Positions 30,675-53,101 of a DNA stretch of 60,647 bases are shown one piece after another. The stretch spans positions 1 to 60,647 of the forward strand of contig NZ_JABFVK010000064.1 of assembly GCF_013362815.1 (NCBI RefSeq). The letters run 5' to 3'. Position 1 is the first letter of the stretch. Every line of letters starts with the position of its first letter. This DNA comes from Hamadaea sp. Lineage in GTDB: Bacteria > Actinomycetota > Actinomycetes > Mycobacteriales > Micromonosporaceae. The position numbers and the translations under genes were made by a program. Under the pieces are notes generated by a model. The model saw nothing but the letters and a program-made list of their open reading frames with translations. It did not search any database and had not been told where the DNA came from.

Positions 30675-32858
30675 TCACGAACTTATAGAAGTTCCTAATG
30701 CATCCCGCGTACGCCGTCGCTCCAGGTACCGTCCCGGCCATTGGGCGGCGGTACCGATGACGGACAACAGAGCCGGGGCGAGCAGCGAGCGTACGACGAA
30801 GGCATCGATCAGAATCCCCGCGGACAGCGCGAAAGCCAGCTCGCGGAAGGGTCGCAGGGGCACGAGCGCCAGCAGCCCGAAGCTGATCGCGAGGGTGAAG
30901 GCCGCGGTGCGGATGGCCCGGGCCGACTCCGGCAGCGTGATCGCGAGCGCCTCGCGGAGTGGCCGTCGGCGGGCTTCGCGCCAGGCGGGACCGACGCCGA
31001 AGATGTTGTAGTCCGAGCCGAGCGCGACCAGCAGCACCGCCGCCGCGAACGGCACGTAGAACGTGATGCCGTCGTTGCCGAGCCAGTCCTCGAACACCCT
31101 GGTCGTGAGCCCGAGCGTGGCCAGGATGGCCAGCACGCTGCACGCCAGCAGAGCCAGCGGAGCCGCGAGCGCGCGCAGATAGAGCGCGAGGAACAGCAGA
31201 TTGGCGGCCAGCGCTGCGAGTGCGATGCGGCCGAGATCGTTCACCGTCTGGTCGACGATCACATCCGCCACCGCGGTGTCGCCGCCCAGGCTGAGCTGAG
31301 CGCCGCCCAACCCGGCTCGATCCGCCAGGCCGGGCAGATCCGCCTGTAGCCGCGTCAACGTCTGCACTGCCCGCCCGCCGAGCGGCTCGTCCGACAACAC
31401 CACGAGGTATCTGGCCGCGCTGCCGTCCTTCGCCTCGAACAGCGGGCGCACCTGGGGAATCAGCCGGTCGTCCGGGCCGACCACCGCCGCGACCCCAGGC
31501 TCGCGGGCCAGCGCGTCGCGCAGCCGGGCCAGCTCCGCGCTCTTGCCCGCAACCCCCGCGCCCTCCACCAGCACCTCGGTCGGCGAGAGGATGCCCTTCG
31601 CGAATCCCGCCTCGGCCTGGTCCGCCGCCTGCCGCGCCGGGTGGCTCGCGGGCAATGCCTCCACAAACGACACTCCGAGCGTCATGTGCCGCACCGGCAA
31701 CGCCGCCCAGGCCAGCCCGCCGACGCACGCCACGAGCATGACGAACGAGAATCCCGGCCAGGTCAGCACCCGGGCCCACCAGCCGCGCGGTTCGCGTACC
31801 GGGGCCGGTCTCCGCATTCGCGTCGGCAGGACCAGACGTCCGAGAATCGCCAGCAAAGCGGGCACCAGGGTCACCGCCACGACCATGCCGATCGCCACGG
31901 CCACGGCGAGCCCCGGTCCGAACGCCCGGAAGGTGGGCGATCCGGCGACGATCAACGCGCCGGTGCCGGCCGCGGCGGTCGCTCCGGCCGTCATGATGAT
32001 CGGCGAGAAACGCGCCGTCGCCAGGCGTGCGGCCGGCAGCCGGTCCAGGCCTTCTTCCAGGTGTACGCGTAAAGCCGAAACGTAGAACACCACATAGTCG
32101 GTGACCACCCCGAGCAGCAACGCGACCAGCAACGGCTGAGTCTCCTGCGGAACCGCGACGTCGAACCGCTCCGCGAGCGCGCCGCCGACGCGCAGCGTGA
32201 TCACGATGGCCACCCCCGCCACGGCCAGCGCCAGGACCGGCGCTACCAGGGAACGGAAAGCGAACGCCACGATGAGGAACACGGCCGCGACGGTCGCCAC
32301 TTCGAGCCAGGTCAACGAGGACAAGACAATGCGGCCCTGCTCCACCCGGGCCGGAACCGAGCCGGTGACGCCGACGACGTGATCCTGCGGCCCGTAGTAC
32401 TTCGCCACGAACTGGTTCGCCGCCTCGGTCTGCTCGGCGAGGTTCACGTCCGGCCGGGTGAAAAGGTACGTGATGATCGTGGTCCCGTCCTCCTGGGAAC
32501 CGGGAAGCAGCTTCTTCTCGTTGGAGATCGGCACCGCCGCGAGAATCGGCTGCACATCGGCGTACTGGCCGGTTGTCACCGCCCGCGCCCGCTCCACCGC
32601 CTTCGCCTGCACGTCGAGCGGCAACCCCTCCGGATCGCGTTGTACCACCGCGACCCGGCTCAGCAGCGGAAACCCGAACTTGTCGTAGGAGCGCAGTTCG
32701 CTCTGCACGGCCGGGTTGCCGGCCGACACGAGCTGGCTCAGATCCTCACCGCCCTGACCGACCGCGGGCAGGAATCGCACCGCTGCGATGGCCGCCACCA
32801 CCCAGAACGCCACGACGACCCAGCGCAGGCCGACCACCACCCAGGCGTAGATCTTCAT
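30675..32858 (-). CDS. MMPL/RND family transporter
   Basis: A 727-aa membrane protein made of two similar halves. Each has a first helix, a large extracytoplasmic domain and five grouped helices. The proton-relay Asp-Tyr pairs are VVTDYVVFY and ALGSDYNIFG. The shape equals mycobacterial MmpL and actinobacterial MMPL exporters of lipids or siderophores. The ATG at 32858 has GGGGAG 4 nt upstream and is preferred to GTG 32870. The 3' end carries the putative operator of the downstream MarR-MFS unit, which starts 12 bp later. No cargo can be assigned. Confidence 0.85.
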   Translation of the reverse strand: MKIYAWVVVGLRWVVVAFWVVAAIAAVRFLPAVGQGGEDLSQLVSAGNPAVQSELRSYDKFGFPLLSRVAVVQRDPEGLPLDVQAKAVERARAVTTGQYADVQPILAAVPISNEKKLLPGSQEDGTTIITYLFTRPDVNLAEQTEAANQFVAKYYGPQDHVVGVTGSVPARVEQGRIVLSSLTWLEVATVAAVFLIVAFAFRSLVAPVLALAVAGVAIVITLRVGGALAERFDVAVPQETQPLLVALLLGVVTDYVVFYVSALRVHLEEGLDRLPAARLATARFSPIIMTAGATAAAGTGALIVAGSPTFRAFGPGLAVAVAIGMVVAVTLVPALLAILGRLVLPTRMRRPAPVREPRGWWARVLTWPGFSFVMLVACVGGLAWAALPVRHMTLGVSFVEALPASHPARQAADQAEAGFAKGILSPTEVLVEGAGVAGKSAELARLRDALAREPGVAAVVGPDDRLIPQVRPLFEAKDGSAARYLVVLSDEPLGGRAVQTLTRLQADLPGLADRAGLGGAQLSLGGDTAVADVIVDQTVNDLGRIALAALAANLLFLALYLRALAAPLALLACSVLAILATLGLTTRVFEDWLGNDGITFYVPFAAAVLLVALGSDYNIFGVGPAWREARRRPLREALAITLPESARAIRTAAFTLAISFGLLALVPLRPFRELAFALSAGILIDAFVVRSLLAPALLSVIGTAAQWPGRYLERRRTRDALGTSISS
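30679..30694 (-). promoter_or_regulatory. MarR-type operator dyad
   Basis: GAACTT-ATAG-AAGTTC is a perfect 6-bp dyad with a 4-nt centre. It overlaps the last codons of the MMPL gene and the region where the MarR promoter must lie. Confidence 0.55.
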
Positions 32859-32947
32859 AGCGCTCCCCACCGCTCCCCAGCCGCTCGGTCCCGTTCCGCT
32901 GTGCGCGGCGCGTACCCGCCCGGCAACGGTCGGAAACCGACGCCCTT

Positions 32948-33562: not shown

Positions 33563-34133
33563 CCTCCCCGCCTGGAGAATAGGGGCGTTCGGCGGGAAGC
33601 ATGACCTGGGCGGCGTCGAGGTCGCCGCCGCGGATCATCGCGCGGATCGCCTGGCACTGCGTCGTGACGTCCTCGATGCTGACGATCCACTCCTCGGTGT
33701 AGCGGCGTACGGCGTCGCCGGACAGGCCCACCTGGATCGCCCGGTGCGGAAGGGGCCGTAGACGGATGTCGCGTTCCGGATCCCACTGGATGCGTACCGG
33801 GGCTCGCAATGAGCGCTTCCAGTCGTCGCGGTCGCGGTGAATGCCGGGCTCGTAGCTGCTCAGCGCGCTGTTCGCGAGGGCCCAGTCGAACCCGTCGCGG
33901 CGGATCCGGGCGGCGAGCACACGTTCCTGGCCAGGCTTGTCGCCCCAGCCGCAGCGATACATCATCCAGAGGAAAGAAGGCTTGATCCAGGTCATTCGGT
34001 CTCGTTTGAAGCCCGGCCCGAACCGCCCGGTGCGGGCGGCGGGCTCGGCGATCGCCGGGGAGTAGGCCTGGTAGACGGTGATCGTCTCGTCGTCGTGAAG
34101 CGCCCGGATCTGCCGGGCGGGAATCTCGTTCAT
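33549..34133 (-). CDS. DUF4291 family protein
   Basis: A 194-aa protein with the family's conserved blocks: IRALHDDETITVYQAYSPAI, GFKRDRMTWIKPSFLWMMYR, ERVLAARIRRDGFDWAL and IQWDPERDIRLRPLPHRAIQ. DUF4291 is widespread; its biochemical role is unknown and an RNA-ligase-like or nucleotidyl role has not been shown to my knowledge. The ATG at 34133 is the conserved start; upstream extension to 34277 is weakly conserved in composition and was not used. Confidence 0.85.
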   Translation of the reverse strand: MNEIPARQIRALHDDETITVYQAYSPAIAEPAARTGRFGPGFKRDRMTWIKPSFLWMMYRCGWGDKPGQERVLAARIRRDGFDWALANSALSSYEPGIHRDRDDWKRSLRAPVRIQWDPERDIRLRPLPHRAIQVGLSGDAVRRYTEEWIVSIEDVTTQCQAIRAMIRGGDLDAAQVMLPAERPYSPGGEVRNC

Positions 34134-34286
34134 CTCGGTGCCCAAGGTATCGATGGGAAAATCGGTTGAGCCTTCGAGTTTCGGCGGGATAGCATCCTCC
34201 GCCGCATTCGAGGCGAACCCCTCGCAGCGTACGCACGCTGAACTGAGGACGGGCGTGACTGTCGGCTGAATCATCACTGCGAGGGG

Positions 34287-36323: not shown

Positions 36324-37168
36324 CGCGGAACCTTGGTGCCCCGGCCTTGGGCGGATCCGGTCATCGTGGTCCGCCCGAGGTCGAGGAAGCAACGCGCGGT
36401 TCGATCGCCGGCGTCCCACATCGCGCGCGTGTTGAGGACCGTGAACCGGGCCCGGTACGCCTTGGCGTACTGAGCCGCGGAGACACCGACGAATGCCTGG
36501 ACCTTCCGTTCGCAGGCCGACTGCGCCTCGGGCCAAGCGTCGTCGGTCTTCCGGAAGGGGCTCGTGGCGGCCACGTCCGTCGCGCCGGCGAACTCCCAGT
36601 TGTGGGGCTCACGGCAGTCGACCGGGACGAAGGTCTCGGTCTTCGCAGCGTCCCGCCGGAAACAGCCGATGGACAACTCCGGGATGTTCACCCGCCCCGA
36701 ACCGTCGATCGCCGTCATCCGGCTGAGCCGCTCATCCAGGAAGTCCACGTCGCAGCGGACCCAGCGGGCGCCCTGCTCCCATTCCGACGGGCGCGGAACG
36801 GTGATCGTCACGACCGCCCGCAGCGGCCGCCAATCACTTCCGAGCCGCTCAGCCACCTTCTGATCGCAGATCCCGAACGAGACCGGCAGCGAAGCGTCGG
36901 TGACGGCGGGCGGGGCTGCGGCGGCCGGCCCGGTGATCTCGGCGACGTAGGCGACCTCGCGATTGTGGGAGTCGAGGCAGTCCTTGGCGAGGTCGAACGT
37001 CTTCGACCCACCGCCGATGGTCACGTAGCAGTCGCCCGCCTTGGGGACGGCCATCGTGGGCGAGGGACTCGCCGCCTCGGGCGAGGGGCTCTCGGGCGAG
37101 CACCCCGCGACCAGCGCCGCCATCATCACGAATGCAGCCACAACGCGGCCGCTCCGCTCCCCCGTCAT
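36314..37168 (-). CDS. Septum_form domain lipoprotein
   Basis: A 284-aa exported protein. A short signal ends in the lipobox LVAGC, giving a lipid-anchored Cys, followed by a Pro/Ser-rich spacer. Two Cys-containing repeats (KAGDCYV, AKDCLDSHNREV; LSIGCFRRDAAKTETFVPVDCREPHNWEF) match the Septum_form domain of actinobacterial cell-division-associated proteins. It probably acts at the outer membrane face. Its stop overlaps the convergent helicase gene by 10 bp. Confidence 0.8.
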   Translation of the reverse strand: MTGERSGRVVAAFVMMAALVAGCSPESPSPEAASPSPTMAVPKAGDCYVTIGGGSKTFDLAKDCLDSHNREVAYVAEITGPAAAAPPAVTDASLPVSFGICDQKVAERLGSDWRPLRAVVTITVPRPSEWEQGARWVRCDVDFLDERLSRMTAIDGSGRVNIPELSIGCFRRDAAKTETFVPVDCREPHNWEFAGATDVAATSPFRKTDDAWPEAQSACERKVQAFVGVSAAQYAKAYRARFTVLNTRAMWDAGDRTARCFLDLGRTTMTGSAQGRGTKVPRYS

Positions 37169-37224
37169 CTGTCCTCCACCGTCCGACGCACCGATCGGAC
37201 GAAGTATAGGGATCCGGCCCCAGG

Positions 37225-37280
37225 CATGATCAGCGGAAGCTTCGTGGGGTCATGGCCCCGCGAAACTTCCGCTGATCATG
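37225..37280. terminator. Long hairpin (27-bp arms) after the amidase gene
   Basis: Arms 37225-37251 and 37254-37280 pair at 24 of 27 positions around a 2-nt centre; the arm begins CATGATCAGCGGAAG. It starts 6 nt after the amidase stop on the minus strand and lies upstream of the Septum_form gene. A cruciform or terminator role is likely; there is no U-tract. Confidence 0.75.
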
Positions 37281-37286
37281 AGCGGT

Positions 37287-38468
37287 TCAGTACTGGAACG
37301 CCTCGCGTACGGCGCCGCCGACGATCGCGCACCAGGTCGAGTGGTCGACCTTGCCGTTCGGCTCCAGCCCATGGATGCGCTGCATGTCCTGCACGGCCTT
37401 CTTCGTGACGTAGTCGAACTCACCGGTCACGGTCACCTCCGGCCAGCCCTTGCGGTTCAGCATGAACTGCACCGCGCTGACCGGCAGCCCGGTCGCGTCC
37501 TTCTCGAGGTCGACGACCAGCGCCTCCCACGTGTCCAGGGTGAAGGTGGCGTCGACGTCGACCGCGATGCCGTTGGCCGCCTGGAACGCGCCGACCGCGG
37601 CAACCGTGGCCGAGCCGAACGCGCCGTCGGTGGGCACGGCGTATCCGTGGTGGTTCAGCAGGTACTGGCCCACCTGGACGACCGGGCTGTTGACGAACCG
37701 CCAGATGTCGGGCCAGCGCCGGGCCGGGATGTCGGCGTGGGACGAGCCCATCGCCTGGGCGACCCGGGAGCGTACCGACGGGAAGAGCTTGTAGAAGGCG
37801 ATGCCGGGGCAGTCGGTCACCCGGAAGTCCCAGTGCCCGAAGATGTCCCAGGCGTGCAGCCCGAACCGCTGGGAGACCGCGACGCAGAGACGTACGAGGG
37901 AATCGAGCAGCGCGTCCGGCGGCACCTCGGTGATATAGGTGCCTTCGTTCTCGATGCCGATCGCGTTGCCGTTCTCGCCCGGGCAGTGGGCGGAGACCAC
38001 CTGGTGGCTGCCGGCCTCCAGCCGCTCGAGGCTACGGTGGCGGCCTTCGAGGACGTAACCGCCTCTGCTGACCGTGAAATGCTGCCCGGTGTCGGCCCAG
38101 CCGTTGCCGTCCATGTGCAGGTTCTGGCAGTCCTGAGCCAGCTTCACGGCCTGCTCACGCGAGTAGTCCGTGACGTTCGGGAAGGCCATGTGGTGCAGGA
38201 TGATCTTGTTCGTGGTGTTGTTGGTCAGCTGAATCGTGCTCGACGGCGGGCGGGCGCCCCACGAGTCGCAGTCGATGATCCAGGGGAACTCGCTGCTCGG
38301 CGTGGCGAAGGCGGGCGTGCCGGCGGCCAGCTCGGTGCCGACGACGGCGACCGCCGCCAGGCCGAGACCGGCGCGCAGGATCGTCCGGCGGTCCAGTTCG
38401 GAGATCGGCTCACCGATCGGTTGATGGGAGTGGTCGTGTGCCTGGCCATATGCCTGGTCGTGTGCCAT
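37287..38468 (-). CDS. Tat-exported N-acetylmuramoyl-L-alanine amidase with peptidoglycan-binding repeats
   Basis: A 393-aa secreted hydrolase. A twin-arginine signal (DRRTILRAGLGLAAVAVVG) follows a His-rich leader. The PGRP/amidase_2 domain (about 60-225) keeps the zinc ligands: KIILHHM, SAHCPGEN/GHWDF and the Cys in TDCPG. Two PG_binding_1 repeats follow (GQYLLNHHGYAVPTDGAFG and VQFMLNRKGWPEVTVTGEFD), the second reaching the C-terminus. It should cut the lactyl-alanine amide bond in the wall. AAGAGG lies 5 nt before the ATG. It is the last gene of a minus-strand envelope block with the deacetylase and GT2 and ends at a strong hairpin. Confidence 0.9.
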   Translation of the reverse strand: MAHDQAYGQAHDHSHQPIGEPISELDRRTILRAGLGLAAVAVVGTELAAGTPAFATPSSEFPWIIDCDSWGARPPSSTIQLTNNTTNKIILHHMAFPNVTDYSREQAVKLAQDCQNLHMDGNGWADTGQHFTVSRGGYVLEGRHRSLERLEAGSHQVVSAHCPGENGNAIGIENEGTYITEVPPDALLDSLVRLCVAVSQRFGLHAWDIFGHWDFRVTDCPGIAFYKLFPSVRSRVAQAMGSSHADIPARRWPDIWRFVNSPVVQVGQYLLNHHGYAVPTDGAFGSATVAAVGAFQAANGIAVDVDATFTLDTWEALVVDLEKDATGLPVSAVQFMLNRKGWPEVTVTGEFDYVTKKAVQDMQRIHGLEPNGKVDHSTWCAIVGGAVREAFQY

Positions 38469-38544
38469 GAGGACCTCTTGGGGGGCGACGGTGACTTCGG
38501 GGCGAGGTGGCAGATTTCTTCTTCTTGCCACAGGCTCACGAAGA

Positions 38545-39288
38545 CTATTTCCGCCCGGCGGTCGCCGCAAGACCCTGGTAGGCGGACACCCCCAGCAGCT
38601 CGTCCACGGTGACAAACTTGTAACCCCGGGAAAGCAGGCCGTCCACGGTGGCGCGTACGGCGTCGACGGTCGCGCCGCGGTCGCCGCCATGGCCGTCGAA
38701 TCCGTCGTGGAAGATGAGGATCGAGCCCGGACGCGTCTTCGCGACCGCCCGCCGCGCCATGCGTACGCCGGACGGCTGGAACACTTCGAGCGCGTGCCCG
38801 AACTCCCCCGCCACCGGCTGCATGCCTTGGCTGCGCAGCATTCGCAGGAGCGACGGATGCCGCCACAGCCACGGCGTACGCGCCAACGCCGGAGTGCGGC
38901 CGAGAACGCGGGTGAGGATCTGCTGCGTCCGCTCGACCTCGTCCGCGTACGCACCCGGCCGCAGATAGGTGCCGAACCGGTGGCTCAGCGAATGATTGCC
39001 GACGACGTGCCCCTCGTCGGCCACCCGCCGGGCCACCTCGGGATGACGTTCCACGCAGTGTCCTACGTGGAAGAACGTCGCCTTGACCCCCCGATTGCCG
39101 AGGAAGTCCAGGATCTGCGAGGTGTACGGCTCGTTCGGGCCGTCGTCGAAGGTCAGCGCGACGACCCGCTCGTCCGTCCGGGCGCGGTGCGGATAGTTCC
39201 GCGCGGTGGGCCCGAACGGTGCCATGAGCAACCAGTACGCCGCGCCCCCGAACGCAACGACCAGCAATGCTGCGACCGCGAAGATCAC
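38545..39288 (-). CDS. Polysaccharide deacetylase (CE4/NodB)
   Basis: A 247-aa membrane-anchored enzyme: one N-terminal helix (AVAALLVVAFGGAAYWLLM) then a NodB domain. Motif 1 VALTFDDGPN (catalytic and metal Asp), motif 2 NHSLSHRFG (metal His pair), motif 3 RTPWLWRHP and motif 5 SILIFHDGF are all present. It would de-N-acetylate peptidoglycan or another glucosamine polymer outside the cell. The ATG at 39288 overlaps the GT2 stop by 4 bp, so deacetylase and GT2 are coupled and may act on one glycan. Confidence 0.9.
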   Translation of the reverse strand: MIFAVAALLVVAFGGAAYWLLMAPFGPTARNYPHRARTDERVVALTFDDGPNEPYTSQILDFLGNRGVKATFFHVGHCVERHPEVARRVADEGHVVGNHSLSHRFGTYLRPGAYADEVERTQQILTRVLGRTPALARTPWLWRHPSLLRMLRSQGMQPVAGEFGHALEVFQPSGVRMARRAVAKTRPGSILIFHDGFDGHGGDRGATVDAVRATVDGLLSRGYKFVTVDELLGVSAYQGLAATAGRK

Positions 39289-40271
39289 CGGACGACCTCG
39301 AGACCGTCACTCCGGGCGGGCTCAAGATCGTCGCGTCCGGGGTCAAGATCGTCGCCCTGGATGGGGTCAAGATCGTCGCGGTATCCGGGATAACGCGGCA
39401 TTGCGGCGCGGGAAGGGGACGTTATCCCGGATACCGCGAGCGAAGCGGGCGACGCAGCCGACAAAGCGGGCGAAGCCAACGACGAAACGGGCGAGACAGC
39501 GGGAGAAGTACCCGAGAGCGCAGAAGGAAGCCGGAAGGCGGGAGCGGAGCCGAGCACCCGCCGCCCGGCGATCCGGTTGACGCCGTAGGTCAGCAGGTAG
39601 TGCACGGGAAGGCTCACGAACACGTTGTAGCCCAGGCCTCGAGTGAAGCGCCGCCCCGAAGTGAAGGTGGGGTTGGCGTGCGCGTACACGACCCGGCCGC
39701 GCTTGCGCAACCGGCGCAGCTGGTCCAGCTCGTCGCCGCCCTGGGTCAGGTTGGTGTCGTAGCCCGTGAAGGCGTCCCGCCGGAACGCGATGTTGGTCGC
39801 GCTGGCGTACATCGCCCGGCCGGTCAGCTTGTAGACGCCGTTGACCGCTCCGAACAGCGCCCGGCCATACGTACGGCCCCAACGCGGGCCGTCGGCGTAC
39901 TCGCACGGGCCGACGACCGCCACGATGTCGTCGCTCGCGCGGAACGCCGCGTCGATGCGGCTGAGCCAGTCGCGGCTGTAGACGGTGTCGGCGTCGGCCG
40001 AGACCACGATCTCGCCGCGCGCTTCGAGGGTGCCGCGCTGCCGCGCGTTGCATACTCCCGGCTCGGGCTCGGTCACCACCCGGGCGCCGAGGTCGCGGGC
40101 GATCTGCGCGGTGTCGTCCGTGCAGTTGTTGTCGACGACGATCACTTCGAAGCCGCCACCGGGACCGCCACCGTCGAAGTCCTGCTTCTGCAGGGACAGG
40201 AGGGCGTCGGCGACGTAGCCGGCCTCGTTGAAGCACGGGATCACGACGCTGAACCTGATCTTGTCTGCCAT
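39285..40271 (-). CDS. GT2 glycosyltransferase with repeat-derived C-terminal tail
   Basis: A 328-aa enzyme. Residues 1-240 form a GT-A domain: VVIPCFNEAGYVADALLSL, EVIVVDNNCTDDT, the DxD motif ADADT and GGDELDQLRRL. The last ~85 residues are Ser/Ala/Pro-rich and then acidic (DDLDP three times); they come from repeats in the DNA: three copies of TCAAGATCGTCGC and a 19-bp inverted repeat at 39377-39438. This tail is not part of the GT2 fold. The partner deacetylase suggests a role in making a cell-surface glycan. There are one or two possible membrane segments (residues 210-235). Confidence 0.85.
   Translation of the reverse strand: MADKIRFSVVIPCFNEAGYVADALLSLQKQDFDGGGPGGGFEVIVVDNNCTDDTAQIARDLGARVVTEPEPGVCNARQRGTLEARGEIVVSADADTVYSRDWLSRIDAAFRASDDIVAVVGPCEYADGPRWGRTYGRALFGAVNGVYKLTGRAMYASATNIAFRRDAFTGYDTNLTQGGDELDQLRRLRKRGRVVYAHANPTFTSGRRFTRGLGYNVFVSLPVHYLLTYGVNRIAGRRVLGSAPAFRLPSALSGTSPAVSPVSSLASPALSAASPASLAVSGITSPSRAAMPRYPGYRDDLDPIQGDDLDPGRDDLEPARSDGLEVVR
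39322..39379. repeat. Three direct copies of TCAAGATCGTCGC inside the GT2 tail
   Basis: Copies start at 39322, 39343 and 39367 (spacings 21 and 24, both multiples of three). They encode the repeated DDLDP/DDLEP-type segments of the GT2 C-terminus. Confidence 0.85.
39377..39438. repeat. 19-bp perfect inverted repeat inside the GT2 coding sequence
   Basis: Arms 39377-39395 and 39420-39438 are perfect inverted copies of CGCGGTATCCGGGATAACG with a 24-nt loop. Such palindromes are normally intergenic; here one lies within the low-complexity tail of the GT2 gene. Confidence 0.9.
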
Positions 40272-40445
40272 GGCGTCAAGTCTTCGTCGAAAGGGCCTGC
40301 CTGAACCATCAGGAGCTCCCCCGACTTCGACCTGGGGCTATCCCCCCTAAGGAGGTGCACCCAACCCCAGGTGGGACGGGCTACCCAGGCGAGACGACCC
40401 GGGCGGCGGTGACAACAGCTCACCCCGACCTGAGTAACGGCGCTC

Positions 40446-41420
40446 ATGACCGCGACCGCGAGGCTGCCGAGGATGATGGTCATGGACGGGGTTTATCTCG
40501 GATCACCGGCGTACGCGCTGGGCAGCCGCAAGCAGCACGTCCGCGAGTCCGCCGAAGCGGGCCTGCTCCGGTCGGCCGCGAGCGACCTGGAGGCGGCCGG
40601 CTTCCGGTGGCATCACGTATGCGGGCCGGACGAGTCGGCGTACGACCTGGCCCGGCAGGCGGTGGCGGAGATCGCCGGGAACGGCGGACTGCGCGACATC
40701 GACGCGATCGTGTACGCCACCTGCCTACCCGAGCCGCAGCAGCACCCGGTGCGCGACGTCAAAATGCTCATGGACTTCCCGGCGAGCCGCTTGCAGGCGG
40801 AGTTCGGATTACGCGATGCGATCGTGGTCGGCCTGCATCAGCAGGCGTGCACCGGGATGCTGGGCGCGCTCCGGGTGGCGAAGGCGCTGCTGGTCAGTGA
40901 ACCGAGCTGGCGGCGCATCCTGTGTGTCACTGCCGACCGCTTTCCCGACGGCGCCTGGTACGAGCAGGCGTACAACGTGATCTCGGACGGAGCCGCGGCC
41001 TGCGTCGTCGGCCGCGAACCGGACGTCTGCCGCCTCCTGACCGTGCATCACATCACCAACGGCGGGCTCGGCCGCGCCGGAGACGACGAAACCGTCGGCA
41101 CCTATTTCGCGTACACGCATCGCATCGTCCGGGAGACCGCGGACCGGATCGGCGCGACGCCGCCGGAACTCGAGTGGATCGTGCCGCAGAACACCCACGA
41201 GCAGGCGTGGCGGATCCTCGCGCGGCTGCTCGCGGTCGACCACGGCCGGGTGTGGCATCCGTCGTTGCCGGACGTGGGCCACGTGATCTCGGCCGATGTG
41301 ATGGTGAATCTGGCGGCCCTGCTGGCCTCCGGCCAGGCGCAACCGGGGGACCGGATCGCGCTGGCGATGGCCGGATTCGGGCTGAACTGGCAATGCGCGG
41401 CGCTGGAGGTGACGCGATGA
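40446..41420 (+). CDS. KASIII-like (FabH-family) condensing enzyme, operon gene 1
   Basis: A 324-aa thiolase-fold enzyme. The nucleophile is C135 in HQQACTGMLGAL, and a catalytic His is H251 in QNTHEQAW. FabH has Asn in GNTSAAS; the aligned block here is GHVISAD with H279, so the triad would be Cys-His-His, as in KASI/II. It may condense, transfer or decarboxylate an acyl group on the carrier protein. The ATG at 40446 lies in a 174-nt gap after the divergent GT2 gene that contains a CCTGGGG/CCCCAGG dyad (about 40339-40372). The stop overlaps the diiron oxygenase gene by 4 bp (ATGA). It starts a seven-gene operon. Confidence 0.82.
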   Translation: MTATARLPRMMVMDGVYLGSPAYALGSRKQHVRESAEAGLLRSAASDLEAAGFRWHHVCGPDESAYDLARQAVAEIAGNGGLRDIDAIVYATCLPEPQQHPVRDVKMLMDFPASRLQAEFGLRDAIVVGLHQQACTGMLGALRVAKALLVSEPSWRRILCVTADRFPDGAWYEQAYNVISDGAAACVVGREPDVCRLLTVHHITNGGLGRAGDDETVGTYFAYTHRIVRETADRIGATPPELEWIVPQNTHEQAWRILARLLAVDHGRVWHPSLPDVGHVISADVMVNLAALLASGQAQPGDRIALAMAGFGLNWQCAALEVTR

Positions 41421-42292
41421 GCGTGCTGGCGGCTGCGCTCGCGGAGGTCGCACCGACGGCCGACCGGCTGAGCCGATTGTCGCAACGGGCCTATCAGAAT
41501 CCGTACGCGGTCGACTGGCCCTCCACAGTAGAACCCGAAGCGGATTGGTTCGGCAGCCCGGAGTACGTCAGCCTCTTCGGCACCCCGGCGTGGTCCGAGC
41601 TGGACGAGAAGGGCCGCAGGCGGCTGGCTTTCCACGAGGCGGCCGGCTTCTACAGCCTCAACATCCACGGCGAGAAGTCGCTGATGCAAGGGCTCGCCGC
41701 GCGGCTGTATCGCAGCGACCTCACGGAGTTCACCGGCTATCTGCACCACTTCCTGGACGAGGAGAACAAGCACAGCGTCTACTTCGGAGGCTTCTGCACC
41801 CGGTACGCCCGCGTGCACCGAGCCCGGCAGCTGGCCTTCACCGCCGACCGGCCGCGAGACGTGGCGGACTTCCTGTTCTTCGCCCAGACGATGATCTTCG
41901 AGGAGATCGTCGACCACTACAACCGGGTCCAGGCCCGGGATCGGCGGCTGCATCCGCTCGCCCGGTTCATCAACGACAGTCATCACCGCGACGAGGCCCG
42001 GCATCTGGCGTTCGGCCGGCAGCTCGTCGGCGCACTCTGGGCGGCCGGCGCGCCGTGGCCGCAGGAGGCGGAGATCCGTGCCGACCTCGACCGCTTCTTC
42101 ACCATCACCTGGCGCGACTTCTACCACCCCGACGTGTACGCCGACGCCGGCATCGCCGACCCGTGGGAGGTCGCCGACGCGGCTTGGTCCGCGCCCGCCC
42201 AACGGGCTCATCGCCGGCGGGTTTCGGACAAGTGCCTGCGCGTACTCACGGCGGCGGGCGTCCTGACCGAGGAGCCGACGGATGCGTTCTGA
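41417..42292 (+). CDS. AurF/CmlI-type diiron N-oxygenase, operon gene 2
   Basis: A 291-aa all-helical diiron oxygenase. The full seven-ligand set of p-aminobenzoate N-oxygenase AurF can be placed: E86 (NIHGEKSLM), E116 and H119 (DEENKH), E162 (FEEIVDHY), H189, E193 and H196 (HHRDEARH). The third histidine is the feature that sets AurF/CmlI apart from other diiron oxygenases. These enzymes oxidise an amine stepwise to hydroxylamine, nitroso or nitro. The neighbouring carrier protein and aa:CP ligase suggest that the amine is a carrier-bound amino acid, as for CmlI-like enzymes; this is inference. Overlaps upstream (4 bp) and downstream (11 bp). Confidence 0.85.
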   Translation: MSVLAAALAEVAPTADRLSRLSQRAYQNPYAVDWPSTVEPEADWFGSPEYVSLFGTPAWSELDEKGRRRLAFHEAAGFYSLNIHGEKSLMQGLAARLYRSDLTEFTGYLHHFLDEENKHSVYFGGFCTRYARVHRARQLAFTADRPRDVADFLFFAQTMIFEEIVDHYNRVQARDRRLHPLARFINDSHHRDEARHLAFGRQLVGALWAAGAPWPQEAEIRADLDRFFTITWRDFYHPDVYADAGIADPWEVADAAWSAPAQRAHRRRVSDKCLRVLTAAGVLTEEPTDAF

Positions 42293-42527
42293 GCCCGAAA
42301 TCCGCAGCGCCTTGCGAACCTACGTCTCCCGGCACGCCGGTGACGTCGCGTTCACCGATCAGACCGCGCTCTTCTCGGTGCGTGTACTGCGGTCGATCCA
42401 CCTGCCCGAGCTGATCATGCTGCTCGAACGGCTGCGCGGTGCGCCGATCGACGTCGAGCAGCTGCGCATCGGCGACTTCGACAGCATCGACGCGATGCTC
42501 ACCCGATTCGGAGGCCCGCATGCCTGA
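42282..42527 (+). CDS. Acyl/aminoacyl carrier protein, operon gene 3
   Basis: An 81-aa four-helix protein of carrier-protein size. The pattern LRSIHLPELIMLLERLRG aligns with the DSL-helix II region of ACPs, placing the phosphopantetheine Ser at S38. The usual Asp before it is R37, so the motif reads RSI, as in unusual carrier proteins that may be recognised by dedicated ligases. The C-terminal GDFDSIDAMLTRFG matches the last ACP helix. The next gene encodes an aaRS-like aa:CP ligase, its likely partner. It overlaps both neighbours (11 bp and 8 bp). Confidence 0.75.
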   Translation: MRSEPEIRSALRTYVSRHAGDVAFTDQTALFSVRVLRSIHLPELIMLLERLRGAPIDVEQLRIGDFDSIDAMLTRFGGPHA

Positions 42528-43395
42528 CCTTGCCGCGTTGACCGCGCTCGGGTTGCGCTGGGACGCGTACGGCCAGGCCGGTCTCACCGGACCGTTGTTG
42601 CGCCTGGCCGACGACCTCGACCACGCGTTCCAGCAGCTCGCCGCGCAGTGGCAGGCCGTCGAGGAACGCCCACCCGCCACACTGCCCGCCAGCGCGCTCA
42701 CCGGTCACCTGCGCGCCTTCCCGCACCAGGCCACGTTCGCGATCGGGCTCGAACCCACCGACACCAACCTCGGCGAGTTCGCCGACGGGCCGGTGGTCGG
42801 CCCGGCCGGCTCGGTGGTCCTCACGCGCACCGGCCCGGTCACGACCGTCTTGACTCCAGCTGCTTGCTTCCACGTGTACGCACAACGCCGGGGAACGCAG
42901 CTGACCGAGGCGGCGTACGTGACGACTCGAACCACGTGCTTCCGCCGTGAACAGCACTACGAACCACTCCGGCGTCAGTGGAACTTCTCGATGCGCGAGA
43001 TCGTGTGCCTCGGCACTTCGGACGAGACGACGTCCTTCCTGGCCGAAGCCCGCGCGCAGACCGACGACTTCGCCCGCCGGATCGGCCTGCCGTTGGCTTG
43101 GGCTCCCGCGACCGATCCGTTCTTCCGGCCGCATCGCCAGCCGGGGTTCCTGCTGCAACGCGTACAGCCCGTCAAGCACGAGGCGATGTATGGCTCGCTC
43201 GCCCTGGCCTCGGCCAACCGGCACCACGACCACTTCGGGTCCACTTTCGACATCAATCGAGCCGGGGTGCCGGTGAGCACCGCTTGCGTCGCCTTCGGCC
43301 TCGAACGCTGGTTGTACGCCGTCGTCGACCGGCACGGGACCGACCCCGGCGCCTGGCCCGAAATCGCTCTTCCTGCAGAGGTGGTAACCGCATGA
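42520..43395 (+). CDS. Class II aaRS-like amino acid:[carrier protein] ligase, operon gene 4
   Basis: A 291-aa protein related to the SerRS-like ligases that load amino acids on carrier proteins instead of tRNA (Bradyrhizobium Bll0957 type). It has no tRNA-binding arm. Candidate zinc ligands are C116 (TPAACFHVY), E160 (FSMREIVCL) and C256 (VSTACVAFG). Motif 2 is TTCFRREQHYEPLRRQWNF and motif 3 AFGLERWLYA with E262 and R263. Known members charge Gly or Ala; the amino acid here is undecided. GGAGG lies 5 nt before ATG 42520. Overlaps with the ACP gene (8 bp) and the reductase gene (4 bp) argue for coupled production. Confidence 0.82.
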   Translation: MPDLAALTALGLRWDAYGQAGLTGPLLRLADDLDHAFQQLAAQWQAVEERPPATLPASALTGHLRAFPHQATFAIGLEPTDTNLGEFADGPVVGPAGSVVLTRTGPVTTVLTPAACFHVYAQRRGTQLTEAAYVTTRTTCFRREQHYEPLRRQWNFSMREIVCLGTSDETTSFLAEARAQTDDFARRIGLPLAWAPATDPFFRPHRQPGFLLQRVQPVKHEAMYGSLALASANRHHDHFGSTFDINRAGVPVSTACVAFGLERWLYAVVDRHGTDPGAWPEIALPAEVVTA

Positions 43396-44534
43396 CAACC
43401 CTGATCACCGGCGCAGACGGCTACCTCGGCCGCCGGATCGCCACCGCCCTCCTCGGCTCCGACGATCTCGTGCTCGGCGTACGCGCGGCCGACAACGCCG
43501 AGCTGAACCGGAAGCGGGCTGCGCTCGCCCATCTCAGCCATCTCGGTCATCAGGTGGTTCCCGTCGACCTCCGGGACGACGACCCGTTCGCGTACGTCGA
43601 CCCGGGCCGGATCACCCGGATCGTGCACGCCGCCGCGCTCATCCGGTTCGACCTCGAACGGGCCGACGCCGAGCAGGTCAACGTGACCGGGACGGCTCGC
43701 GTACGCGAGTTCGCCGAGCGCTGCGACCGTCTCGATCGGCTGATGTTCCTGTCCACCCTGTACGCAGCCGGCCGCCGTCGCGGCGACATACGCGAGTCCC
43801 GCCTCGGCGACGTCGGATTCGTCAACCATTACGAGTGGTCGAAATGGGCGGCCGAGGAGCTGCTGCTCGACTCCGACCTCCCTGTCACCATTCTGCGTTT
43901 GCCGACTGTGATCGCCGAAGACGCGACCGGAGCCATCGGCCAGTTCAACGTCTTCCACCACACGCTGCGGCTGTTCCATCGGGGTTTGCTGACTTTGGTG
44001 CCAGGCGATCCGGCGACCCCGCTGAGCCTCGCGACCGCGGAGTTCACCGCCGATGCCGCCGTGGCGATGCTCGCCGCCAACCCGGGCATCTACCACGCCT
44101 GCGCTGGACCGGTGGCGCTCGGCGAGGTGATCGAGACCGCGTTCACGGTGTTCGAGGCGGACCCGGACTTCCAGCGGCGGATGCTGCCGAGACCGGTCTC
44201 CTGCGATCGGGCTGCCTTCCTGGATCTCGCGGACGCGGCCAGTCGCTTGCGTGGCGGCGCGCTGCAACCGGTGCTGCCGTCGTTGCTGCCGTTCGCCGAG
44301 CAGCTGTACCTGCCCAAGACGTTCCGGGCCGATCGGCTGCGCGCGGCCTGGCCCGGGTATCGCGAGCACGACTCGCTCGCCGTGGTCGCGGCGGCTGCTC
44401 GCGCCTTGGTGGTAGCGCTCGCCGATCGTCGGGCTGACTCTGACGCTGCCGTGTCCCGGGGAGCTTCGTCGGAGCGGGCCGCCTCCGGCAGCCAGACCGC
44501 CGAGAAGGGCCGGGCTCATGCTGCGGCGCGTTGA
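43392..44534 (+). CDS. Extended SDR / thioester-reductase-like protein, operon gene 5
   Basis: A 380-aa NAD(P)-binding protein. The cofactor motif is ITGADGYLGRR, the active site S121-T122 and Y147-x3-K151 (NHYEWSKWAAEELL). IVHAAALIRFD and VNVTGTARVREFA resemble the NAD_binding_4 family, which includes the reductase domains that release carrier-bound thioesters as aldehydes; an epimerase/dehydratase role remains possible. The last ~35 residues are a charged low-complexity tail. Its ATG overlaps the ligase stop (ATGA), and its end overlaps the BtaA-like gene by 17 bp. It may release or modify the acyl product of the operon. Confidence 0.75.
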   Translation: MTTLITGADGYLGRRIATALLGSDDLVLGVRAADNAELNRKRAALAHLSHLGHQVVPVDLRDDDPFAYVDPGRITRIVHAAALIRFDLERADAEQVNVTGTARVREFAERCDRLDRLMFLSTLYAAGRRRGDIRESRLGDVGFVNHYEWSKWAAEELLLDSDLPVTILRLPTVIAEDATGAIGQFNVFHHTLRLFHRGLLTLVPGDPATPLSLATAEFTADAAVAMLAANPGIYHACAGPVALGEVIETAFTVFEADPDFQRRMLPRPVSCDRAAFLDLADAASRLRGGALQPVLPSLLPFAEQLYLPKTFRADRLRAAWPGYREHDSLAVVAAAARALVVALADRRADSDAAVSRGASSERAASGSQTAEKGRAHAAAR

Positions 44535-45606
44535 GCTGGCCGGCGCGGTCGACGACAGGCTGTTCTTCGCCCAGGTCCGCGAGGACCCCCAGGTCGAGAT
44601 CGACGCCTTCGCCGGGCGGTGGGACGGCCCGATCGCCGTGGTCAGCTCGGCCGGCTGCACCGCGTTGTCGCTGGTCGCCGCCGGTGCGCCGGACGTCACC
44701 GGGGTCGACGTCAACCGTACGCAGAACCATCTGGTGGAGTTCAAGGCGGCCGCGATCGACCGGCTCGATCGGCGTACGGCGCTGGGGTTGCTCGGCGCGG
44801 CTCCGATGAGCGCGGACGACCGGCGGTATGCGTACTGGGGTATCCGGTCGGTGCTCAGCCCGGCGGCCGGCCGGTACTGGGACGGACGGCGGAGCGCGAT
44901 CGCGACCGGCGTCCTGCAGTCCGGCGTCACCGAACGGCTCATGCGCCTCATCGCCCGGGTCGTACGCCTGATCCACCGGGGCCGGGTGCCCGAGCTGCTT
45001 CGACTGTCCACTCTGGACGAGCAACGGCGGTTCTATCGCGACGAGTGGGACACCCCCGCCTGGCGGGCGTTGTTCCGGGTGCTGTGCAACCGGCTGGTGC
45101 TGCGCCGCGCGTACGACGAGAGATTCTTCGCCCATGTCGAAGACGCGAGCTACGCGGCGCATTTCCACAGCGTCGCCGAGCACACGCTGACCGATCTCGC
45201 CATCGCCGACAACTACTTCCTGCATTACCTGCTGACGGGGAGCTATCCCGCAGCGAGCCGGCCGCCCTATCTCACTCAGGCGGTGGCGATCGGCCGGCTC
45301 GGCCTCGTCGACGCGACCTTCACCGACTACCTGCGGACGCGCCCGGACCAGAGCATGGCCGGGTACGCCTTGTCGAACATCTGCGAGTGGCTGACCGCCG
45401 ACCAGATCGACGAACTGTTCGCCGAGATCGTCCGCACCGCCCGGCCCGGTGCACGGCTCGTCTTCCGCAACTTCGTCGGCTGGACCGAGGTTCCCGAGCG
45501 GTGGCGCGACGCCGTACGCGAGGACCGCGCCCTCGGCGAACGCATGATCGACGCCGACCGCAGCCTGTGCCAGCGCCGCGTGGCGGTCTGTGCGGTCGGA
45601 TCGTGA
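44518..45606 (+). CDS. BtaA-like (DUF3419) aminocarboxypropyl transferase, operon gene 6
   Basis: A 362-aa protein of the DUF3419/BtaA family, which transfers the 3-amino-3-carboxypropyl group of S-adenosylmethionine; the model enzyme makes the head group of betaine lipid. The SAM-binding region is IAVVSSAGCTALSLVAAGA with the acidic strand end VTGVDVNRTQ, and the C-terminus carries ICEWLTADQIDELFAEIVR and ARLVFRNFVGW. In this operon, with no lipid genes, it may add the group to a soluble amine or hydroxylamine. GAAGGG lies 7 nt before ATG 44518. Overlaps upstream 17 bp and downstream 4 bp. Confidence 0.75.
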   Translation: MLRRVELAGAVDDRLFFAQVREDPQVEIDAFAGRWDGPIAVVSSAGCTALSLVAAGAPDVTGVDVNRTQNHLVEFKAAAIDRLDRRTALGLLGAAPMSADDRRYAYWGIRSVLSPAAGRYWDGRRSAIATGVLQSGVTERLMRLIARVVRLIHRGRVPELLRLSTLDEQRRFYRDEWDTPAWRALFRVLCNRLVLRRAYDERFFAHVEDASYAAHFHSVAEHTLTDLAIADNYFLHYLLTGSYPAASRPPYLTQAVAIGRLGLVDATFTDYLRTRPDQSMAGYALSNICEWLTADQIDELFAEIVRTARPGARLVFRNFVGWTEVPERWRDAVREDRALGERMIDADRSLCQRRVAVCAVGS

Positions 45607-46664
45607 CTGGCTTCTCCGTTCGAGCTGCCTGCGCTGACGACAACGCAGGGTTGGTCGACTTGGCTGCTCTGTCCACGATGGATGGCGACCTCGCTCTTCG
45701 GTTCGACCGCGAGCCGGACTACTTCGCGCTGAACCGCCTCGCCGGCTCGGACTGGCGGGTGGGGGTGGTCGACGGCGACAACGGACCGCTCGGATGCCTC
45801 GCAGTCGCATGCCGGGACGCGTACGTCGACGGTTCACCCTGCTCGATCGCGTACGTGGGCGATCTCAAGGTGCATCCGTCGTTTCGGCGGCAGGGCGTCG
45901 CCCGCGCGCTTGGGCAGTGGGCGTACGCGACCGCCCAAGATCTGGCCGGGCCGGCCGCGCCGATGATGTCGACGGTGCTGGCCGGCAACGAAGCGGCTGC
46001 GAACCTGGCGCTGGGCTTCCTGCCGGGCGTGACCCGCTCGGCCACGATCCGGTCGGCCAGCGTCGACCTGCTGACCCGCCATCGTCCCCGCCGAGCCGAT
46101 CGCGCGCTGGGCCTCGACGTACGCCTCGCCGAACCGGCCGACGAACCGGAGATGCTCCAGCTCTGGCGTCGGTCAGCCATACGCCGACAGTTCGCGCCCG
46201 TCCTCACGGGGTTCTCACTCCAGGAGCCCGGGCTGGATTACCAGCTGGCCCGGAGGCCCGGTGGTGCGTTGGCCGGGTTCGTCGGGCTGTGGGACCAGCA
46301 CGACATCAAGCAGATGCGCGTCATGGGCTACTCCGCCCGGCTGGCCGCGGTCCGGGTCGCCTTCAACCTGGCCGCTCCCCTCTTCGGCGCGCCCCGGCTG
46401 CCGAGACCGGGCGGCGCACTGAGCTATCGCACCGCAGTCCACGTGTGCGCACTCGATTCGGCGACGCTCCACGCCCTGCTGCGGTACGCCTGCGAACACC
46501 TGCACGGCCGGTACTCGTTCCTCACCGTCGGCCTCGACATCCGGGACCCGCTTGCCCGGGCGTTGACCGGGCTACGCGCTCAGCCGGCGGACGTCGATGT
46601 GCTTGTCCTGAATGGACCATCCGATCGCAGCGCACCTGTCCATTTCGAAATCGCGACCGTCTGA
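45603..46664 (+). CDS. Double GNAT N-acetyltransferase, operon gene 7
   Basis: A 353-aa protein with two GNAT-like halves. The first has the CoA-binding motif IAYVGDLKVHPSFRRQGVA (R-x2-G-x-A). The second (about 170-353) is diverged and has no clear CoA loop. It starts at GTG 45603 in a GTGA overlap with the previous gene. It may acetylate or acylate the pathway product, including for self-protection. It is the last gene of the operon; a strong terminator follows 110 bp later. Confidence 0.75.
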   Translation: MTGFSVRAACADDNAGLVDLAALSTMDGDLALRFDREPDYFALNRLAGSDWRVGVVDGDNGPLGCLAVACRDAYVDGSPCSIAYVGDLKVHPSFRRQGVARALGQWAYATAQDLAGPAAPMMSTVLAGNEAAANLALGFLPGVTRSATIRSASVDLLTRHRPRRADRALGLDVRLAEPADEPEMLQLWRRSAIRRQFAPVLTGFSLQEPGLDYQLARRPGGALAGFVGLWDQHDIKQMRVMGYSARLAAVRVAFNLAAPLFGAPRLPRPGGALSYRTAVHVCALDSATLHALLRYACEHLHGRYSFLTVGLDIRDPLARALTGLRAQPADVDVLVLNGPSDRSAPVHFEIATV

Positions 46665-46773
46665 CCCGGCGCCACCCCCGCCCGTCCGCGGCAGCATCCG
46701 CCTGCACCCACCGCAATGGGCGTCACCTGAGCTGCGTCCGCGCGTGCGGGTGGCACCCGCGCATGATCGAGTA

Positions 46774-46806
46774 CCCGTGGTCAGCGCCGAAATCGCTGAC
46801 CACGGG
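46774..46806. terminator. Bidirectional terminator between the biosynthetic operon and grpB-like gene
   Basis: CCCGTGGTCAGCG and CGCTGACCACGGG form a perfect 13-bp stem with a 7-nt loop between convergent genes. A smaller GCGGGT/ACCCGC hairpin lies just upstream (about 46746-46761). Confidence 0.8.
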
Positions 46807-46843
46807 CACTGGATCGAGAGCTTCAGAGGAGCAGCCTGCTGGG

Positions 46844-47359
46844 TCACGCGAGCAAGTCGCGCATGAACTCCGTCTTCGCGCTGGTGTAACCGCGCCGGTC
46901 GGCGGCGTACCGGACGGCGAGCTCGCGTTTGAGGGCGCTGTAGCGGGCGACCGCCGCCGGATCGGCGCGGAGACGATCGCGTACGGCGAGATAGCGGGAC
47001 CACTGCGGATCGTCAGCGGCGACCACGTGGAGGTGGACGACGCGTACCCACGCCTCGGATTCGGCGACGAAGACCTGACCGCCGTCCGGCCCGGCGTCGC
47101 CTCGGTAGATGTATCCGGCTTCGGTCAGCACATCGCGGACCGAGGCGAAGGGCACGCCGGGTGCTTGCCGGACCGCAAGGTCGATCACCGGCTTGGCGGC
47201 GAGCCCCGGCACCGAAGTCGACCCGATGTGCTCGACCCCGGCGGCCAGCCCATCCAGCAACGCCGCCACCTCGGCCGCGTACTCGGAGCCGACGAGCAGC
47301 CATGACGGGTCGTGGTCGACGACGGTCACGACTCCGTAGCGCAAACCGAGCTGGGCCAT
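46844..47359 (-). CDS. GrpB family protein
   Basis: A 171-aa nucleotidyltransferase-fold protein. Signature: VEHIGSTSVPGLAAKPVIDLAV near residues 42-63, with AESEAWVRVVHLHVVAADDP and the C-terminal YTSAKTEFMRDLL. GrpB proteins occur alone or fused to CoaE in actinobacteria; function is not established. TAGAGT (47366-47371) lies 6 nt before the ATG, giving it a leaderless promoter inside the end of the upstream membrane-protein gene. Confidence 0.88.
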   Translation of the reverse strand: MAQLGLRYGVVTVVDHDPSWLLVGSEYAAEVAALLDGLAAGVEHIGSTSVPGLAAKPVIDLAVRQAPGVPFASVRDVLTEAGYIYRGDAGPDGGQVFVAESEAWVRVVHLHVVAADDPQWSRYLAVRDRLRADPAAVARYSALKRELAVRYAADRRGYTSAKTEFMRDLLA

Positions 47360-51196: not shown

Positions 51197-51767
51197 CGGC
51201 GCGAGTGTTCCAGGAGCCGAGCGCCGGCCGACCGTGCTCAGTCGTCAGAATGCTGATCGTCGCGGTATGCGGATGGGCGAACAGCTCACCGGACTGCGGC
51301 GGCAGGCCGAGCCAGCGAGCGGCGAGTACGCGTTGGAGGTGACCGTGCAGAACCAGCACGACGTCACCTTCCACGAGGCGTGGCCGGACGCGGTCGAGGA
51401 CTGCGTCCACCCGCGCGGAGACCTCCTGAATGAATTCGCCGCCCAGCACGCCGTCGCGCCACAGGTCCCAGCCCGGCCGATCCGCCCTGATCTCGTCCTC
51501 GGTGAGGCCTTCGTAGCCGCCGTAGTCCCACTCCCATAGATCTCCATCAGTACGCGCATCGCCCAGCCCGATCAACTCCGCGCTCTGGACTGCGCGTACG
51601 GCCGGACTGGTGAACGCGGCGATGACCGGCCGGGCCGCGATCACCGGGGCGAGACGGCGTACAGCCGCCCGGCCCGCTTCGGTCATCGGGATGTCGGTGC
51701 GCCCGGCGTACTGGCCGGTGCGACTCCACTCGGTCTCGCCGTGCCGGACCAGGATCAACTCACTCAC
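51192..51767 (-). CDS. Histidine phosphatase (phosphoglycerate mutase-like, PhoE type)
   Basis: A 191-aa enzyme. The catalytic RHG motif is in LILVRHGETEWSRTGQYAGR; the second His is in VLVLHGHLQRVLAARWLGL; the acid Glu is in LWEWDYGGYEGLT. It removes phosphate from small molecules. GTG 51767 overlaps the ThrE stop by 8 bp, so it follows ThrE in one transcript. Confidence 0.9.
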   Translation of the reverse strand: MSELILVRHGETEWSRTGQYAGRTDIPMTEAGRAAVRRLAPVIAARPVIAAFTSPAVRAVQSAELIGLGDARTDGDLWEWDYGGYEGLTEDEIRADRPGWDLWRDGVLGGEFIQEVSARVDAVLDRVRPRLVEGDVVLVLHGHLQRVLAARWLGLPPQSGELFAHPHTATISILTTEHGRPALGSWNTRAA

Positions 51768-53013: not shown

Positions 53014-53101
53014 CTGTCCGCGGCCTCGATCATGAGCCCACGATAGCGGGTGATTTGGGACTCTGACCGACATTTCGCGGCGACCCGCAGCGCCAAACCC
53101 G

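Follow-up and report, generated by a model that had tools for sequence, protein, structure and literature searches.

Carrier-bound amino acid N-oxidation has a described precedent in the glycine-nitronate pathway of enteromycin and akazaoxime. In the passages of PMC9967187 drawn on here (citing He and Ryan 2021), a diiron oxygenase acts on carrier-bound glycine, yielding an oxime or, if a methyltransferase takes part, an O-methyl nitronate. Here we examine a seven-gene operon at positions 40446-46664 of a 60,647-nucleotide stretch of DNA from the soil actinobacterium Hamadaea sp. (contig NZ_JABFVK010000064.1), the whole of which is referred to as the window. We put at about 0.5 the probability that the operon encodes the self-contained biosynthesis of a small N-oxidised amphiphile. 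An earlier note on this DNA had read it as a carrier-bound amino acid N-oxidation pathway; what it had missed is that the operon is a cut-down version of a cassette linked to fatty acids and spread over several phyla.

The operon and the enteromycin/akazaoxime pathway, as far as those passages describe it, have in common a diiron oxygenase and, both predicted here, a carrier-bound glycine and a later S-adenosylmethionine (SAM)-dependent alkylation of the oxidised group. Unlike that pathway, the operon relies on a stand-alone ligase resembling aminoacyl-tRNA synthetases (aaRS) and on a free carrier, without nonribosomal peptide synthetase (NRPS) or polyketide synthase (PKS). A KASIII-family enzyme (KAS3), a short-chain reductase (SDR), a BtaA-like transferase (BTAA) and a GNAT-family protein (GNAT2) stand where enteromycin and akazaoxime have NRPS/PKS enzymes and an O-methyltransferase; of the hallmarks of that pathway, the oxygenase and the carrier are present and the O-methyltransferase is absent. 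No characterised cluster with a known product was matched, and the literature searched yielded no description of the cassette, a weak negative given that subscription papers lay mostly outside the search. The earlier remark that the operon could not be matched to a described pathway remains valid, within that literature, for the complete cassette, but its first half resembles the published glycine-nitronate chemistry; we regard the operon as a variant of carrier-bound amino acid N-oxidation. If this is right, it would be an unrecognised N-oxidation pathway needing neither NRPS nor PKS, which may escape cluster finders built on those enzymes, and its ligase (AARS), oxygenase (AURF) and carrier (ACP) would form a minimal three-protein system for carrier-bound amino acid N-oxidation.

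Operon layout and family assignments

All seven frames are open and lie on the forward strand, in the arrangement that had been proposed. From KAS3 to GNAT2 they overlap by 4, 11, 8, 4, 17 and 4 bp, which agrees exactly with the 4-17 bp given earlier for every junction. Purifying selection acts on all seven genes, with dN/dS of 0.14-0.28 relative to the nearest record, a Hamadaea metagenome-assembled genome (MAG; L058). The strong terminator placed at the end of the operon was half right. A perfect 13-bp hairpin (46774..46806) does stand between convergent genes, and the surrounding 46760-46825 folds strongly (-39.3 kcal/mol, z -7.1), but it starts ∼110 bp 3' of GNAT2 and carries no T tract, and a terminator scan of 40200-46900 found no canonical terminator. 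The hairpin is probably where transcription ends, as a non-canonical terminator.

Families were assigned with Pfam and NCBIfam profiles, the NCBIfam and tRNA-synt_2b matches falling below curated cut-offs, and residues were counted in alignments of cassette relatives that include the window row. The assignments of the earlier note were borne out by matches to the ACP_syn_III, AurF, amino acid--[ACP] ligase, NAD_binding_4, DUF3419 and GNAT profiles. AARS (42520..43395) matches the tRNA-synt_2b core and the amino acid--[ACP] ligase family, and has a class II aaRS catalytic core without a tRNA-binding domain, like the Bradyrhizobium ligase Bll0957 (3mey). The match reaches only E 1.8e-29, and AARS scores below the NCBIfam equivalog cut-off. 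Its C116, E144 and C256, invariant in all 71 rows, match the Cys-Glu-Cys zinc-site residues of 3mey, whose counterparts we take to be the zinc ligands in that structure. Amino acid:[carrier protein] ligases are zinc-dependent according to the section of PMC9437257 used here. Between AURF and AARS, ACP (42282..42527) is a small protein of 81 residues whose serine 38 is invariant in 23/23 aligned sequences; it has no Pfam match at E 0.1. The family of the ligase and its conserved zinc-site residues thus favour the proposal that an aaRS-like ligase would load the carrier.

AURF (41417..42292) is an AurF-family diiron protein (Pfam, 124.8 bits) in which E74, E116, H119, E162, H189, E193 and H196 are invariant in 67/67 rows, corresponding to six metal ligands and the additional, seventh histidine that characterises N-oxygenases. 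The portion of PMC13061610 covering Dob3 lists six diiron ligands and an extra histidine for that enzyme. Comparison of AURF with these residues shows agreement in the ExxH and HxxxExxH motifs and in a 31-residue step from the third to the fourth glutamate, while two other gaps differ. Since diiron enzymes such as Dob3 and, in the extract of PMC11705231 at hand, VlmB perform N-N chemistry in pathways that also use aminoacyl activation, AURF could instead act as an azoxy or diazo synthase that pairs the amino acid loaded by the ligase with a hydroxylamine. We regard this as very unlikely: the annotated cassette genes include no flavin hydroxylase, cupin/MetRS or membrane hydrazine synthase, although no dedicated search was made for them. 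As to the VlmO/VlmB pair of azoxy biosynthesis, the six operon products other than the carrier belong to other families, and the ten flank products show no membrane hydrazine synthase, in both cases without the search of a VlmO model. With no hydrazine-forming gene among the annotated cassette genes, the azoxy and diazo readings were set aside.

KAS3 (40446..41420) matches ACP_syn_III and has C135, N249, H279 and D284 invariant in 70/70 rows. At the position of the FabH histidine, 65 of the 70 rows have glutamine and five histidine, and at that of the FabH asparagine all 70 have His279, so that only the cysteine is retained from the Cys-His-Asn triad of FabH-type decarboxylating KASIII enzymes. 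In place of the His/Asn dyad KAS3 has the His-Asp pair of a GHxxxxD (GH-x4-D) motif, aligned to that of ChlB3. Such a site, cysteine plus GH-x4-D, serves acyl transfer in CerJ, ChlB3 and DpsC. KAS3 differs from CerJ/ChlB3-type acyltransferases in that it would work beside an aminoacyl carrier.

The invariant H279/D284 of this ChlB3-type site would also suit a hydroxamate route, in which AURF would halt at the hydroxylamine, whose nitrogen KAS3 would acylate while it is still carrier-bound; the resulting N-acyl-N-hydroxyglycyl unit would then be reduced and capped. Both the route and its product, a metal-binding lipid, are unlikely in our view. AurF homologues have been proposed for the actinonin and matlystatin hydroxamates (PMC5719088, in the passages available), but the AurF/ligase modules related to the operon sit with nitronate-processing genes, as detailed below, which points to a fuller oxidation.

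The remaining three products fall into recognisable families. SDR (43392..44534) is thioester-reductase-like, with GxxGxxG and YxxxK motifs, a PF07993 (NAD_binding_4) match of 93.1 bits indicating the short-chain reductase fold of thioester reductases, and Y147 and K151 invariant in 67/67 rows. BTAA (44518..45606) has a BtaA-family domain (PF11899, DUF3419; 175.5 bits over residues 13-329 of 362) and is a predicted SAM:3-amino-3-carboxypropyl transferase; a search of PDB sequences gave a chance match alone. GNAT2 (45603..46664) is a GNAT-family N-acyltransferase, judged by its length to be double. BTAA resembles the BtaA of the BtaA/BtaB pair as a DUF3419 transferase that, by analogy, would place a homoserine arm on oxygen. 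The BtaB partner of BtaA is an N-methyltransferase, whereas BTAA is partnered by a GNAT protein. The account of small-molecule aminocarboxypropyl transferases in PMC10491745, in the part consulted, names NAT, BtaA and discadenine synthase and mentions no pathway like that of the operon.

The seven-gene form and the wider cassette

A search with AARS of 200 Micromonosporaceae genomes gave matches in 36 genomes at 41 places, one of them the window. Among the best 20 of the other 40, examined with wide flanks, ten have all seven genes in this order, which with the window makes at least 11 of the 200 family genomes. A twelfth case, in Streptosporangiaceae (L065), came from a scan of species genomes. 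The named Micromonosporaceae carriers are Hamadaea, Catellatospora and Allorhizocola, several of these records being the same contigs as other records. Flanks are alike within Hamadaea and between Catellatospora L036 and L037 and largely different elsewhere, so that the seven genes behave as a unit. The homologs thus do co-occur, in order, in 12 genomes, as expected if the genes serve one pathway as had been claimed.

The same scan of species genomes for ligase relatives gave 296 loci, of which the best 80 were examined, with genes located by six-frame profiles. As the query was built from cassette ligases, the counts describe that ligase clade rather than all ligases. KAS3, AURF, ACP, AARS and SDR all lie within 10 kb at 59 of the best 80 loci, 56 of these having them in one order on one strand. 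By record labels, many of which belong to MAGs, the 59 loci span nine phyla: Actinomycetota (33), Pseudomonadota (9), Myxococcota (6), Melainabacteria (4), Acidobacteriota (3) and four others with one each. Judged by the same labels, the cassette is found both in cultured strains (Streptomyces, Nocardia and Catellatospora) and in MAGs (Acidobacteria, Myxococcota, Melainabacteria and Proteobacteria). Among the other 21 are loci on truncated contigs and modules that lack KAS3 or SDR. In three Obscuribacterales loci (Melainabacteria; L101, L107, L108) a TPR-repeat protein is encoded between the ligase and the reductase. AURF was not found at the KAS3-SDR-ligase loci of three Archangium records and a Gemmatimonadaceae MAG (L129, L130, L132, L134); there the ligase is followed by a different protein, of 245-268 aa, which weak Pfam matches in L134 relate to ferritin-like and FA_desaturase_2-like proteins.

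Frequent additions in the fuller cassettes are an AMP ligase, an ICMT-like membrane methyltransferase, a phosphopantetheinyl transferase (PPTase), a second carrier and RUB, a small ferritin-like diiron protein with E21, E50, H53, E100, E131 and H134 invariant in 28 sequences. The AMP ligase is nearest to fatty acyl-AMP ligases in L068 and L072 and to acyl-CoA ligases in L111. An MMPL exporter is encoded at many Actinomycetota cassette loci and at L098 and L134, and the one compared with the PDB was nearest to MmpL3. Taken together, the fatty acyl-AMP ligase type of enzyme, the second carrier and the MmpL3-like exporter point to a lipid or fatty-acid-derived product. The expectation that acyl-activation genes lie elsewhere in the seven-gene genomes was not borne out for RUB, the only one searched for genome-wide (0/11); the same search recovered RUB in 4/4 RUB-type positive genomes, which had themselves contributed rows to the query alignment or are very similar to such rows.

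In a quick tree of the four concatenated core proteins (71 rows), the seven-gene rows form a single clade of 12 with a support of 100 in the Shimodaira-Hasegawa-like approximate likelihood ratio test (SH-aLRT). Next to them lies Nocardia stercoris (L072), where BTAA and GNAT2 come on top of the full cassette; the support for this position, 82, is not strong, and several rows of the tree are long-branched and of unsure placement. Because the seven-gene clade lies next to this fuller locus, the window operon is best read as the core with BTAA and GNAT2 after loss of the fatty-acid activation arm.

A census of the alkyltransferases covered 84 loci (the best 80 of 296 plus L034, L037, L043 and L046), of which the 70 with at least three of KAS3, AURF, AARS and SDR were kept. 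An ICMT match counted if it scored 20 bits or more, on whichever strand, up to 10 kb from the ligase, and the BTAA counts include a weak, divergent copy in L046 (53 bits, 30% identity to the window) and one cut by the contig end in L090. ICMT alone was present at 39 of the 70 loci, BTAA alone at 19, both at one and neither at 11 (Fisher p 1.4e-8, kinship ignored). Among the 45 loci that have AURF and extend 7.5 kb or more from the ligase in both directions, 43 have exactly one of the two SAM-dependent alkyltransferases (BTAA at 14, ICMT at 29), L072 having both and L086 neither. As strict alternatives, BTAA and ICMT were rejected, given L072 and the lack of significance on the tree, and we treat their alternation, which is clustered by kinship, as a lead.

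GNAT2 follows BTAA more closely. As a separate gene it is present at 14 of the 20 loci with BTAA and at none of the 50 without, and the two are fused into a protein of 755-761 residues, divergent from the cassette, in three Actinomycetota/Acidimicrobiales MAGs (L080, L081, L087); it was not found at the BTAA loci L118 and L046. These patterns suggest that BTAA and GNAT2 act together, the fusion being the best evidence, and lend support to the capping by aminocarboxypropyl and acyl groups proposed earlier, as two coupled steps. The fusion also suggests a head-group chemistry distinct from that of betaine lipids. BtaA itself makes a betaine lipid (PMC10491745, part consulted), and BTAA presence requires six changes on the core tree, at least four of them on branches starred there; from this one could suppose that the operon joins two unrelated halves, a carrier N-oxidation module and a betaine-lipid-like pair acting on a membrane lipid. 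We think this improbable, since the seven genes are adjacent in 12 genomes, BTAA accompanies the core repeatedly, in Actinomycetota, in a Deltaproteobacteria MAG and in a Polyangiaceae MAG, and it alternates near-exclusively with ICMT.

Related modules and the predicted pathway

The level to which AURF would oxidise its substrate is suggested by related modules in which a homologous AurF and ligase lie near a small carrier (Tistrella pTM2, L131/L142; L049; L051; and probably the Streptomyces NBC_01431 plasmid, L143). Unlike the operon, these modules do not contain a KAS3-SDR pair, nor was BTAA seen; an SDR gene in L142 and a KASIII-family gene in L143 lie several genes off the module on the other strand. 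In the AurF tree, whose root sits on a very long outgroup branch, eight rows fall on one side of a branch with SH-aLRT 99 (L049, L050, L051, L052, L131, L135, L136, L137), and the modules of six of them contain a nitronate monooxygenase, an O-methyltransferase or both. L049 has both, L051 and L052 have relatives of its nitronate monooxygenase, and L051, L131, L135 and L136 have an O-methyltransferase of one common cluster; neither enzyme was seen in L050, which has an LCM-type methyltransferase, or in L137. The cassette rows do not form one clean clade, and rows without KAS3 or SDR are also present, on short or cut contigs (L079, L103, L108, L115) and elsewhere (L086, L095, L114, L116). The host genome has a second AurF-family match (G000:C2:11201-12022, L001), which at 344.6 bits is much stronger and lies far from AURF in this tree.

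Plasmid loci show a similar arrangement. On the Tistrella plasmid (L142) a diiron oxygenase, a carrier-size gene, a ligase-related gene and a nitronate monooxygenase stand in a row; on the Streptomyces plasmid (L143) the row is a diiron oxygenase, a phosphopantetheine-binding gene, a hypothetical gene of ligase size and a nitronate monooxygenase; and on an Agrobacterium vitis plasmid (L144) a diiron oxygenase adjoins a nitronate monooxygenase. These neighbours support oxidation to the nitronate level in the related modules, and for the window operon, by extension from them, we give the same level an even chance. The nitronate monooxygenases of these modules and of Agrobacterium vitis might also suggest that the operon is an oxidative denitrification system ending in the release of nitrite or glyoxylate, with no product. 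Such an outcome seems extremely improbable, as it leaves KAS3, SDR, BTAA and GNAT2 unexplained, and it was set aside given that none of the seven genes encodes a nitronate monooxygenase.

Returning to an N-oxidised amphiphile as product, the steps may be ordered as follows. From its family and zinc site, the ligase very probably adenylates a small amino acid and loads it onto the carrier, glycine being the most likely substrate, at somewhat better than even odds. AURF quite probably oxidises the carrier-bound amine, to a nitronate/nitro or oxime product; the invariant residues, the related modules and the precedent in PMC9967187 (as far as its passages go) all favour the N-oxidation on the carrier that the earlier note had proposed. 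The sequence supports loading and N-oxidation well, but less so the choice of amino acid, the way in which the acyl group is joined and the product. KAS3 would then, with reasonable likelihood, join the oxidised unit to an acyl group by C-, N- or O-acylation, drawing on acyl-CoA in the seven-gene form and on a fatty-acyl carrier in the fuller cassettes, and reductive release of the product by SDR is held with similar confidence. For the last two steps we lean only slightly towards the proposed roles. BTAA, which stands where most other cassettes have the membrane methyltransferase, would use SAM to alkylate an oxygen of the product with a 3-amino-3-carboxypropyl group. This oxygen may be that of the N-O group, by analogy with nitronate O-methylation, or that of an alcohol made by SDR. 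GNAT2 would acylate the newly added amino group.

Several points weigh against this scheme. The operon has no known product, and its steps, the choice of amino acid included, are predictions. Searches of PDB sequences with AURF gave no AurF or CmlI chain, AARS scores 127.9 bits against an equivalog cut-off of 357, and SDR scores 62.1 against 213.35 bits for TIGR01746 and also weakly matches 2-alkyl-3-oxoalkanoate reductases (NCBIfam). The annotation of the seven products includes no nitronate monooxygenase, O-methyltransferase, PPTase, regulator or transporter. Fatty-acid ligase, second carrier, RUB and methyltransferase are absent from the seven-gene locus, so that the acyl donor is a guess, and RUB is absent genome-wide from all 11 seven-gene genomes searched. 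Finally, the alternation of BTAA with ICMT is not significant once kinship is counted (four independent pairs).

A more speculative form of the third step, which we consider unlikely, has the carrier nitronate itself as the carbon nucleophile, KAS3 condensing an acyl group with nitroacetyl-carrier. This would explain a KASIII enzyme without the decarboxylation dyad. If true, nitroacetyl would be a decarboxylation-free chain extender and the product a new class of nitrolipid in several bacterial phyla. Its oxygen, as nitronate or alcohol, would be alkylated by methyl in ICMT-type cassettes and by 3-amino-3-carboxypropyl, followed by N-acylation, in the window operon.

Flanking genes

An MMPL-family exporter is encoded on the reverse strand at 30675..32870, 7.6 kb upstream of the operon, and by blastp it clusters with the exporters of fuller cassettes. 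As these often have an MMPL exporter, it possibly belongs with the operon. The interval 33549-40271 encodes a DUF4291 protein, a UvrD-like helicase, a septum-formation protein, a peptidoglycan amidase, a polysaccharide deacetylase and a family 2 glycosyltransferase; this flank is partly common to L034 and was not seen at the Catellatospora loci. On the other side of the operon, 51760-53073 encodes a protein of the ThrE-like threonine/serine exporter family.

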